Origin: Alphaproteobacteria bacterium
GTDB taxonomy: Bacteria; Pseudomonadota; Alphaproteobacteria; Micropepsales; Micropepsaceae
Length of the DNA: 64,000 nucleotides
Direction: 5' to 3'
Assembly (NCBI GenBank): GCA_017308375.1
Contig: JAFKEW010000042.1
Location: 62,001-126,000, forward strand
The notes below the pieces were generated by a model, which saw only the letters and a program-made list of their open reading frames with translations, made no database searches and had not been told where the DNA came from. This document shows, piece after piece, positions 19,945-41,692 of this stretch. Made by a program: the position numbers and the translations under genes. Each line of letters starts with the position of its first letter. The stretch's first letter is position 1.

Positions 19945-20824
19945 GACCGTCCGCGCCTATCTGGATGCGCTGCAGGCGGCCCTGAAGGGTGCGCCACCGG
20001 CTCTGATCCAGGACGCGCTGGCCGATGCCGAGGAGCATCTGCGCAACGAGATCGCCCAAAATCCGGAGCTTTCGGAATCCGCTGTTCTGGAATCGGCGAT
20101 CGAGAATTTCGGCACCCCTGAGGAGGTGGCCGAGACCTACCGCCTGCTGGAAGAAAGCCTCACCGGACCTTTTCCAAAATCTGAAGAAAACCGCCCAAGC
20201 CGTTTCAGTTTCTTTGGAATTGTCTCTGATCCGCGGGCCTATGGTGCGCTGGTTTATATGCTACTCTCGATTGCGACAGGCATCTTCTATTTCACCTGGA
20301 CGGTGACCGGCCTGTCGCTGACGGTGGGGCTGTTCATCCTGGTCATCGGCATCCCCTTCGCCCTGCTGTTCATCGGCTCCGAGCGCGTCATCGCCCATGT
20401 CGAAGGGCGCGTGGTGGAGACGTTGCTTGGCGTGCGCATGCCGCGTCGCCTGCCCCCAGCCTATGCCGAACGGCGCACCCTGTTTTCGCGCATCGGCGAG
20501 GCGCTGGCCGATATCCGGACATGGTCTTCCATCCTGTACCTGCTGCTGATGCTGCCGCTCGGCGTGATCTACTTCGTTATCGCCGTTGTGGGCCTGTCAC
20601 TTTCGCTGGGCATCGCGGCCGTGTCCATGTACTCGCTGGTCACCAACCAGTCCCACTTCAGCATGGACGCCCTCCCCGTTCTGGACCACGTCCTGCACAC
20701 CGCGCCGGGGCTGGTGATCTTTGCCCTGATCGGAGTGTTGCTCTTCTTTGTGGTCCTGCACGTGGCCAAATTCATCGGCCTGCTGCACGGCAAGCTGGCG
20801 GAGCTTTTGCTGGTCCGCCTTTGA
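19922..20824 (+). CDS. HAAS-like/sensor-domain membrane protein
   Basis: 300-residue protein co-encoded with PadR; the start ATG is at 19922 inside the padR 3' end. Residues 9-80 form a helical HAAS/DUF1700-like region (AYLDALQAALKGAPPALIQDALADAEEHLRN ... ENFGTPEEVAETYR). The rest carries an internal duplication: two similar hydrophobic blocks near 108-150 and 202-238 share the pattern Y-LLL-G-YF-V-GLSL-G, as in the putative sensor domain family. A last membrane segment lies at 262-288. PadR-plus-HAAS membrane pairs are known mainly from Gram-positives, where they respond to envelope stress. Here the ligand is unknown. Confidence 0.8.
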   Translation: MSTGRQPETVRAYLDALQAALKGAPPALIQDALADAEEHLRNEIAQNPELSESAVLESAIENFGTPEEVAETYRLLEESLTGPFPKSEENRPSRFSFFGIVSDPRAYGALVYMLLSIATGIFYFTWTVTGLSLTVGLFILVIGIPFALLFIGSERVIAHVEGRVVETLLGVRMPRRLPPAYAERRTLFSRIGEALADIRTWSSILYLLLMLPLGVIYFVIAVVGLSLSLGIAAVSMYSLVTNQSHFSMDALPVLDHVLHTAPGLVIFALIGVLLFFVVLHVAKFIGLLHGKLAELLLVRL

Positions 20825-20848
20825 CCCCCAAAGGGCTGGCACCGGCAC

Positions 20849-20883
20849 GGCCGCAGTCGAGGGGACTGCGGCCGGTTTCTTTA
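20849..20883 (+). terminator. Intrinsic terminator after the padR operon
   Basis: Perfect 10-base stem GGCCGCAGTC / GACTGCGGCC with loop GAGGG (20849-20873), followed by a T-rich run GGTTTCTTT. It lies 25 bases after the membrane-protein stop. Confidence 0.85.
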
Positions 20884-20896
20884 AACGATTCTTAAC
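20881..20896. promoter_or_regulatory. CtrA-type box upstream of M23 peptidase
   Basis: TTAAACGATTCTTAAC matches the CtrA consensus TTAA-N7-TTAAC exactly. The spacer contains GATTC, a CcrM (GANTC) methylation site, and a second GANTC (GAATC, 20908) lies in the other arm of an AACGATTC / GAATCGTT dyad (20884-20915). It is 167 bases before the preferred peptidase start, directly after the terminator. Confidence 0.6.
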
Positions 20897-21062
20897 AGCG
20901 ATGTTTCGAATCGTTCTTTTGCGACAAGATGTTCTAGCGTTAACGGGGCCGAAACGGTTGACGGCGCGATAGTGCATCCGGCTATATGTGAACGCTGGTT
21001 CGCCAGCGTACATCAGGGCTGGGGCTGGCGGTTTCCGTTGGCACCGAACACCGGGAGTCAGC

Positions 21063-22688
21063 GTGGACCGGCGTAACGATTCAGCGCATCTGCTGCGTAT
21101 CGATTCCTGGCGCCGTTCGGCGCGCTCTGCGGTTGCCGGCCTCGCCGATCCAGATGCGCGCTGGGCACTTGTCTCCACTTCCGTCACAGCGCTGGTTGCC
21201 GGTGCCGTCGCATGGCTTGCCGCGGGTGTCGTGCAGCCGGGTACGCAACAAAACGCATCGCGCGATCACGGGCTAATGCCCTATCAGCTGTTTCTGCAGC
21301 TTGCCTCCAAAGCCGGCGACACATCGCACGCCTCGCTGACGCCAACGATGCCCGGCGAGAGAGACGGACGCAGCGTTGCCGGATCGTCCTATTCATTCGA
21401 TGGCGCGCTCTCGGCCGAAGAAGCCGGTGCCAGCGCAGCACCGGCAGGTATCGAAACACACACTGTAACGCTCGATTCCGGCGACACGCTGATGGGTGCG
21501 CTGACGAATGCGGGCCTGAGCGCCGGTGAAGCGCAGAGCGTGATCAGCGAGCTTGCCAAAGTGTACGATCCGCGCAGCATTCACACAGGGCAGAGCTTCG
21601 ATCTGACATTCGCCGCCGCCCCGCCGCCGCCCGCCGCATCGGTCACGATAACCTTACCGAATGACGGTGTCAGCGATGCGGGCGCCGCTGTCGACGAAGC
21701 CAATGCAGAGCCGGTGCAGGACACGCAGGGCCGCCTGCTTTCCCTTGCCTTCTCGCCATCGGTGGAGCGCGACATCACGGTGACGCGCACCGCGTCAGGC
21801 ACATTTGTCGTCAACGACGCGCAAAAAGTTCTGCACGCGCAACTGCATCGTGCCGGTGCGAAGATCGATTCAAGTCTCTATCTCTCGGCCATGAAAGCCG
21901 GCATCCCGGCCGAGGTCGTGGTGGAGATGATCCGGATGTTCTCTTACGAGGTCGACTTTCAGCGCGATCTGCAGCCGGGCGACTCGTTCGAAGTTCTCTA
22001 CAATTACTACTACACGCCGGATGGACAGCCCGCGAAACAGGGCGACATCAGTTACGCCGCAATACATCTGGGCAACAGATCGGTAGCAATGTACCGCTAT
22101 CAACCCAAGAATGGCGACCCGGCGGAGTATTTCGACTCACAGGGCCGCAGCGCCAAAAGCATGCTGATGAAAACGCCCGTGGACGGCGCACGCATCAGCT
22201 CCGGCTTCGGCATGCGCTTCCATCCGGTGCTGGGCTATTCCCGCATGCACAAGGGCATCGACTTCGCAGTGCCGATCGGCACGCCGGTGATGGCCGCGGG
22301 TAGCGGTACGGTGCAGATCGAGGGCCGTGTCCGCGGCTATGGCAATTTCATGATGGTCAATCATGGCAATGGCTATTCCACGGCCTATGGTCACCTGTCG
22401 CGCTTTGCCGCCGGCATTCACAAGGGTTCGCGCGTGCGCCAGGGCCAGGTGATCGCCTATAGCGGCAACACCGGCATGACGACGGGTCCGCATCTGCACT
22501 ACGAAATCCGCGTACATAACCAACAGGTCAATCCGCGCAACGTGAAGATTGCGTCAGGCCGCAAACTTGGCGGTTCCGAACTGAAGACGTTCATGGCGCA
22601 GCGGGCCACGATCGACAAGGAAATCGCGGGCCTGCCGCTTGAAACCAAAGTGGCGGACGCGACCGGCGATCTGCGCTCCGCCGACTAA
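21063..22688 (+). CDS. M23 family metallopeptidase with OapA/LysM-like domain
   Basis: About 541 residues from a GTG at 21063; another in-frame GTG at 20988 would give 566. A single N-terminal membrane anchor (WALVSTSVTALVAGAVAWLAAG) follows a short basic tail. After a linker comes an OapA/LysM-like segment (HTVTLDSGDTLMGALTNAGLS) and a Csd3-like middle domain. The LytM/M23 domain (about 400-520) has the zinc ligands HKGIDFAVP (His, Asp) and HLHYEIRV. It probably cleaves cross-linked peptidoglycan peptides at the inner-membrane face. A CtrA-type box lies upstream, fitting cell-cycle control of wall remodelling. Confidence 0.92.
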   Translation: MDRRNDSAHLLRIDSWRRSARSAVAGLADPDARWALVSTSVTALVAGAVAWLAAGVVQPGTQQNASRDHGLMPYQLFLQLASKAGDTSHASLTPTMPGERDGRSVAGSSYSFDGALSAEEAGASAAPAGIETHTVTLDSGDTLMGALTNAGLSAGEAQSVISELAKVYDPRSIHTGQSFDLTFAAAPPPPAASVTITLPNDGVSDAGAAVDEANAEPVQDTQGRLLSLAFSPSVERDITVTRTASGTFVVNDAQKVLHAQLHRAGAKIDSSLYLSAMKAGIPAEVVVEMIRMFSYEVDFQRDLQPGDSFEVLYNYYYTPDGQPAKQGDISYAAIHLGNRSVAMYRYQPKNGDPAEYFDSQGRSAKSMLMKTPVDGARISSGFGMRFHPVLGYSRMHKGIDFAVPIGTPVMAAGSGTVQIEGRVRGYGNFMMVNHGNGYSTAYGHLSRFAAGIHKGSRVRQGQVIAYSGNTGMTTGPHLHYEIRVHNQQVNPRNVKIASGRKLGGSELKTFMAQRATIDKEIAGLPLETKVADATGDLRSAD

Positions 22689-41677: not shown

Positions 41678-41692
41678 TTAAGCCGGGTTTAA
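41678..41692. promoter_or_regulatory. CtrA-type box upstream of mutT-flp
   Basis: TTAA-GCCGGGT-TTAA, an exact TTAA-N7-TTAA, 32 bases before the mutT ATG in the argJ-mutT gap. In Caulobacter the Flp pilin gene pilA is CtrA-dependent, which makes a box before an operon holding an Flp pilin meaningful. Confidence 0.5.

Follow-up and report, generated by a model that had tools for sequence, protein, structure and literature searches.

The DNA analysed here (hereafter the window) is a 64,000-nucleotide stretch of a contig from an alphaproteobacterium of the family Micropepsaceae. It carries a gene for an M23 peptidase, upstream of which lies a gene pair encoding a PadR-family regulator and a HAAS/Sensor protein (Pfam assignments). 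The features of the region, with positions given in the window, are:

20848-20874, plus strand: intrinsic-terminator-like hairpin (-25.3 kcal/mol, z -4.95), belonging to the upstream gene pair
20881-20896, plus strand: perfect TTAA-N7-TTAAC box TTAAACGATTCTTAAC, distal and lineage-specific
20884-20915: exact 8-bp dyad with arms AACGATTC (20884-20891) and GAATCGTT (20908-20915), holding two GANTC sites
20940-20954, plus strand: CtrA-type element TTAA-N7-GAAA, 59 bp downstream of the 20881 box, with an apparently decayed second half-site
20958-20963, plus strand: -35 hexamer TTGACG, found with the TTAA in 33 of 60 orthologues
20982-20987, plus strand: -10 hexamer CTATAT within GGCTATATG, at a spacer of 18
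21016-21023, plus strand: motif GGGCTGGG within the M23 5' leader, recurrent in relatives
21063-22688, plus strand: M23 peptidase gene, with GTG 21063 as the likely start by comparison with relatives

The M23 protein matches two Pfam families, Peptidase_M23 (PF01551, 2.8e-34) and Csd3_N2 (PF19425, 1.1e-7). The catalytic, zinc-ligand-type residues H396, D400, H477, and H479 are invariant in 15 sequences, and an N-terminal hydrophobic membrane segment can be read from the sequence; together, these properties suggest a MepM/RgsM-like membrane-anchored endopeptidase, which is probably active as such. The protein shares the N-terminal membrane segment, the C-terminal M23 domain, and the HxxxD and HxH motifs of the RgsM/MepM/Csd3 type (S. 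meliloti SMc02432, A. tumefaciens Atu4178), the likeness to RgsM being judged on domains (including Csd3_N2) and features. Csd3 is described as the H. pylori orthologue of MepM (PMC8416486), and polar growth of S. meliloti and A. tumefaciens is described as requiring RgsM (PMC6107284, PMC8416486). As the promoter discussed below occupies 20940-20987, translation most likely starts at GTG 21063 and not at GTG 20988, directly after the -10 hexamer. The leader motif GGGCTGGG is found exactly in 24 of 48 leaders, where 0.2 would be expected from its density in coding regions, and occurs in lineages with and without the promoter box described below. It is present in 32 of the 60 loci between 560 bp upstream and 90 bp downstream of the match start. 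A search of Rfam with 20800-21150 gave no match, and no shared fold of the leaders was seen by eye.

The initial annotation singled out the perfect box at 20881, describing a GATTC in its spacer and a second GANTC in the other arm of a dyad, and the sequence confirms this description (GATTC at 20887-20891, GAATC at 20908-20912). Its expectation that TTAA-N7-TTAA should be rare by chance also holds: two occur in 64 kb (at 20881 and 41678), against a mean of 0.04 in dinucleotide shuffles of the window, none of which reached two (0 of 100), and against 0.008 expected from the TTAA density of the window (just 23 TTAA). At the remaining spacings between 1 and 25, TTAA pairs are absent from the 64-kb window. 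The further statement that both boxes are intergenic stands in part: both lie outside the open reading frames (ORFs) called by a simple picker using length and GC3, but mechanically listed overlapping ORFs cross 20881. The box at 41678-41692 has a NUDIX ORF on one side and an ArgJ ORF on the other, neither being a typical target of CtrA. TTAA is depleted in the window (23, versus 60 in Markov sequences). A T-rich run comes after the terminator-like hairpin and passes straight into the 20881 box, whose first TTAA adjoins it.

The GANTC dyad, in contrast to the box, is at chance level. Perfect 8-bp inverted repeats with loops of 3-30 number 67 in the window, versus 57.7 (sd 8.9) in 20 Markov sequences, and GANTC pairs no more than 30 bp apart number 8, versus 6.9 expected. 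GANTC positions are scattered or missing between orthologous M23 promoters, which does not agree with the proposed CcrM/GANTC control; in the ctrA promoters of the genus, by contrast, GANTC is conserved in 17 of 21 (our own count). At chance level and without conservation, the methylation part of the proposal looks coincidental. GANTC as a whole is depleted in the window, with 123 sites versus 270 in Markov sequences.

Absence of CtrA or CcrM from the organism had been named as an observation that would speak against cell-cycle control, and this is not the situation here: genes for CtrA, a CcrM-like methylase, and GcrA were all found. CtrA is encoded with 79% identity over query positions 1-227 (the query being a Caulobacter sequence), GcrA is encoded (E 6.9e-49), and the methylase candidate is a 382-amino acid open frame with a RAMA domain above the cut-off, its likeness to CcrM judged by eye. 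Several further CtrA-like response regulators are present in the genome. Of 69 genomes in the genus, 62 have a CtrA match (E <= 1e-90). The CcrM-like gene (locus L004, minus strand, start 2637) has four GANTC sites within 85 nt of its start.

Pattern searches of the whole genome show that perfect boxes have the spacing excess expected of CtrA sites. TTAA-N{1,25}-TTAA is found at 78 places, 23 of them at spacing 7 and the other 55 spread over 24 spacings (2.3 per spacing), an approximately tenfold excess (Poisson, approximately 8e-16); among the 50 places listed of these 78, spacing 7 accounts for 17 and every other spacing for at most 4. A reversed pattern, AATT-N7-AATT, was tried as a control and gave 28 sites against 23, an apparent lack of enrichment; over spacings 1-25, however, the AATT pattern occurs 671 times against 78, which makes it a weak control, and comparing spacings is more informative. 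TTAA-N{1,25}-GTAA lacks an excess at spacing 7, with 5 among the 100 places listed of 116 found genome-wide, and the TTAA-N7-GTAA site of ctrA itself lies outside those 100.

Seventeen of the 23 perfect boxes are outside ORFs by the simple picker. Pfam was run on 20 ORFs flanking boxes, a subset of the neighbours. One box is near a prepilin peptidase that adjoins a small ORF, which we take to encode a Flp-type pilin; others neighbour a ChpT-type histidine phosphotransferase (HPTransfase) and a penicillin-binding protein, and two are flanked by a FlgEFG-type gene and fliP (the picker places both of these boxes inside a 144-amino acid ORF). CtrA classically controls pilin, chpT, and flagellar genes. 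The remaining neighbours include acyl-CoA dehydrogenase, globin, TrmO, CHAP, sugar transferase, enoyl-CoA hydratase, ABC transporter, DUF2336, TPR, and the NUDIX/ArgJ pair, with some ORFs giving no match.

Orthologues of the M23 gene (E <= 1e-100) are present in 60 of the 69 genomes, that of the window included, and the upstream DNA of all 60 was read. The 20881 box is not conserved before these orthologous peptidases, as the initial annotation would have required: the other 59 have no distal perfect box within 700 bp or the available DNA. An exact TTAA-N7-TTAA is found within 700 bp upstream in six of the 60 (two loci hold less DNA than this), namely the distal box of the window and a proximal one in five relatives. 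In a named collection, the region from 350 bp upstream to 60 bp downstream of the first in-frame start contains an exact box at 5 of 80 loci, and three of these five have gammaproteobacterial titles; the 80 are the best of 588 matches, 78 lie outside the genus, and five hold less than 100 bp of upstream DNA.

What is conserved is a proximal footprint, which in relatives reads TTAA-N7-(G/T)TAA-N-GG-TTGACG-N18-CTATAT. TTAA-N7-N4-N3-TTGACG is present in 33 of the 60 promoters, or 33 of 59 testable ones, as one contig ends 68 nt upstream. In 26 of the 33 box-bearing promoters the second half is NTAA, most often GTAA, and five relatives have TTAA-N7-TTAA without mismatch at this place; the -10 is CTATAT, CTATAA, or CTAAAT in 29 of the 33. 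In the window, the corresponding promoter (20940-20987) is TTAACGGGGCCGAAACGGTTGACG...CTATAT, with GAAA where relatives have NTAA. The -35 hexamer begins 77 bp downstream of the start of the distal box, and transcription would begin near 20994. Three bp separate the conserved element, at approximately -54 to -40, from the intact TTGACG downstream.

In a profile built from 30 promoters that have TTGACG together with a CTATA-type -10, the TTAA is exact in 29 and the AA of the second half in all 30; information stays under 0.4 bits in five of the seven spacer columns and in most columns lying over 4 bp upstream, and the four bases preceding TTAA have 0.6-0.9 bits. The -35 and -10 columns of this profile are fixed by the choice of promoters, which had also taken TTAA into account; when TTGACG and CTATA(A/T) alone serve as anchors, 29 promoters are obtained, with TTAA in 28 and AA in 29. 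Across the 69 genomes, the exact pattern TTAA-N8-TAA-N3-TTGAC has 29 matches, one per genome, of which 26 lie before the M23 gene, and its reversed control has 8 (our own count). The combination of box and TTGAC is thus essentially private to this gene.

The same dyad form recurs in ctrA promoters. Twenty-one of these were compared: that of the genome itself and 20 chosen from the other 61 genomes with CtrA. TTAA-N7-GTAA is conserved in 19 of the 21, upstream of TTAAC half-sites, and on this ground we assign the M23 footprint to CtrA. Autoregulation of ctrA is expected, and CtrA-type sites in its promoter fit this. The ctrA promoter (locus L001, upstream of 1501, and loci L173-L192) reads TTAA-N7-GTAAAC-TTAAC followed by GAATCAA, strongly conserved in the 21, and these promoters also carry a downstream TTAACCAT-like half-site.

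The element is not universal before the M23 gene: 26 of 59 testable orthologues do not have it, and CtrA reaches the cut-off in 25 of these 26 genomes, all but G049, which is 86% complete. In a protein tree of 33 rows, the presence of the box changes three times, versus 8.7 when shuffled. Of the 42 loci with coding sequence, this tree includes the 33 in which 200 or more residues run uninterrupted from the match start; 9 of the 26 testable boxless promoters are represented in it. One of the changes is the contig that ends 68 nt upstream, leaving two losses on the tree, which with midpoint rooting fall in a 7-member clade and in the pair G056/G057. The promoters of G056 and G057 lack TTGACG but keep CTAA- or GTAA-N7-TTAAC close to the gene. 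In several boxless promoters (e.g. L023-L026, L064-L069, L072), a CAATGnnAACAA-type sequence is seen by eye upstream, ahead of TTG(A/C)C and (G/T)TTATATG. Extra upstream sites with at most one mismatch are found in four of seven promoters with a decayed second half versus two of 26 others (Fisher, 0.011; our own count), a result that we do not rely on, as the conserved TTAA is part of five of the six extra sites and three of the six belong to promoters resembling one another.

Our preferred reading, held with slightly better than even confidence, is that the M23 gene is under CtrA control through the conserved proximal element. A sigma70-type promoter (TTGACG, 18-bp spacer, CTATAT) would transcribe the gene, and phosphorylated CtrA would bind the direct repeat TTAA-N7-NTAA, which has an 11-bp period and is set 3 bp before the -35. 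CtrA would most likely activate transcription there by contacting RNA polymerase, and synthesis of the membrane-anchored wall endopeptidase would then be timed to a particular stage of the cell cycle. CtrA binding, activation as opposed to repression, and cell-cycle timing are predicted here from the promoter sequences. In the lineage of the window, the second half-site would have decayed to GAAA and the perfect box 59 bp further upstream would have been gained; this distal box probably also binds CtrA and may aid occupancy or adjust timing, as in Caulobacter pilA. The cell-cycle control of a wall hydrolase proposed in the initial annotation therefore keeps its CtrA part, acting mainly via the proximal element rather than the box first noticed, and loses its GANTC/CcrM part. 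Several observations count against a CtrA reading: the position of the element, the absence of a GTAA spacing excess, the private architecture, the 26 of 59 orthologues that are boxless (25 of them in genomes with CtrA), and the degenerate copy in the window itself. We think it rather improbable that the whole of a wider picture would hold, namely a private CtrA architecture in which a dyad abuts full-strength -35 and -10 hexamers, is ancestral to the genus, and was lost repeatedly with CtrA kept, together with operator turnover to the distal box and GGGCTGGG acting as a control after initiation.

Two other accounts concern the 20881 box. That it serves the M23 gene as principal CtrA operator, tuned by CcrM methylation of its GANTC sites, would fit its perfect consensus (by the spacing background of 23 versus 2.3, about a tenth of such boxes would be chance), the M23 gene being the next gene downstream, and the presence of CcrM-like and GcrA genes; we nevertheless judge it unlikely, given its location approximately 113 bp upstream of the presumed start site, its absence from the other 59 orthologues, and a GANTC dyad that is neither above chance nor conserved. 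A possibility that deserves more weight, while still well short of even, is that the box is a functionless by-product of the terminator T-tract and chance, which would be compatible with CtrA acting at the proximal element. Its first half-site comes right after the hairpin and T-rich run and it is not conserved, but the excess at spacing 7 implies a background of only about 10%, and the T-tract does not reach the second half, TTAAC. We regard the 20881 box as a credible CtrA site, additional and specific to this lineage, that adjoins the T-rich run of the terminator, yet not as the conserved operator.

The proximal element could instead bind another OmpR-family regulator with 11-bp repeats, such as one of the envelope-stress CenR/ChvI type. 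Activating CenR sites just upstream of the -35 are described in R. sphaeroides and S. meliloti (PMC9275681, PMC9561847), a better positional fit; the target here is an envelope enzyme, the architecture is not common to a regulon, and other CtrA-like response regulators are available in the genome. The motifs given in the published excerpts differ, however, being TGA-N8-TGA or AGTCAC-N6-GTGACT for CenR and TTGC-N3-GCAA or GCC-N8-GCC for ChvI, whereas the element is a perfect CtrA box in five relatives and TTAA-N7-GTAA recurs in the ctrA promoter. We see a fairly small chance of such a regulator. Smaller again is the chance that the element is an AT-rich UP-element for the alpha subunits of RNA polymerase and the promoter constitutive: the spacing of its AT-rich blocks by one helical turn, immediately ahead of a near-consensus promoter, would suit this, but an exact TTAA in 29 of 30 and 28 of 29 promoters goes beyond mere A+T, and the N7 spacer is variable and GC-rich.

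Under CtrA control through the proximal element, the M23 promoter is predicted to be a further case among known CtrA-controlled promoters. It resembles the CtrA-activated promoters (TTAA-N7-TTAA) of Caulobacter crescentus in motif, spacing, and 11-bp period, and CtrA is encoded here too; as in Caulobacter, some perfect boxes in this genome are beside pilin, ChpT-type, and flagellar genes. Most Caulobacter CtrA boxes are described as overlapping the -35 (PMC11264516, PMC4287350), with box 5' ends at -39 in ctrA P2 and -49 in podJ P1 (PMC4287350), whereas the conserved box here is upstream of an intact -35 and usually has GTAA as its second half. The CtrA consensus obtained by ChIP-seq in Hyphomonas neptunium is described as TTAA-N7-TTAAC as well (PMC7200025). 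Caulobacter pilA is alike in having a promoter-proximal site and a further upstream site (PMC11264516). Its promoter has four footprinted CtrA sites, that at the -35 being nearest to consensus, and in reporters the upstream sites reduce and delay expression (as described in PMC11264516). In contrast to pilA, the better consensus match here is the distal candidate site, found in one genome only.

We found no report of CtrA controlling this peptidase in the available portions of the literature on CtrA and M23-type peptidases. In the accessible text of the two RgsM papers (PMC6107284, PMC8416486), CtrA occurs once each, in the reference list, and SMc02432 was not found in the main text of an S. 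meliloti CtrA study (PMC4433202). According to passages of another study, A. tumefaciens L,D-transpeptidase genes are preceded by in silico CtrA motifs (PMC11527210); the idea of CtrA control of wall enzymes is therefore not new.

A perfect consensus match in one genome need not equal a conserved operator. If our preferred reading of the proximal element is true, the timing of a likely wall-expanding endopeptidase would be tied directly to CtrA in this alphaproteobacterial group, and its promoters (with an intact dyad, with a decayed dyad and a new distal box, or boxless) would form a natural series for operator gain and loss.
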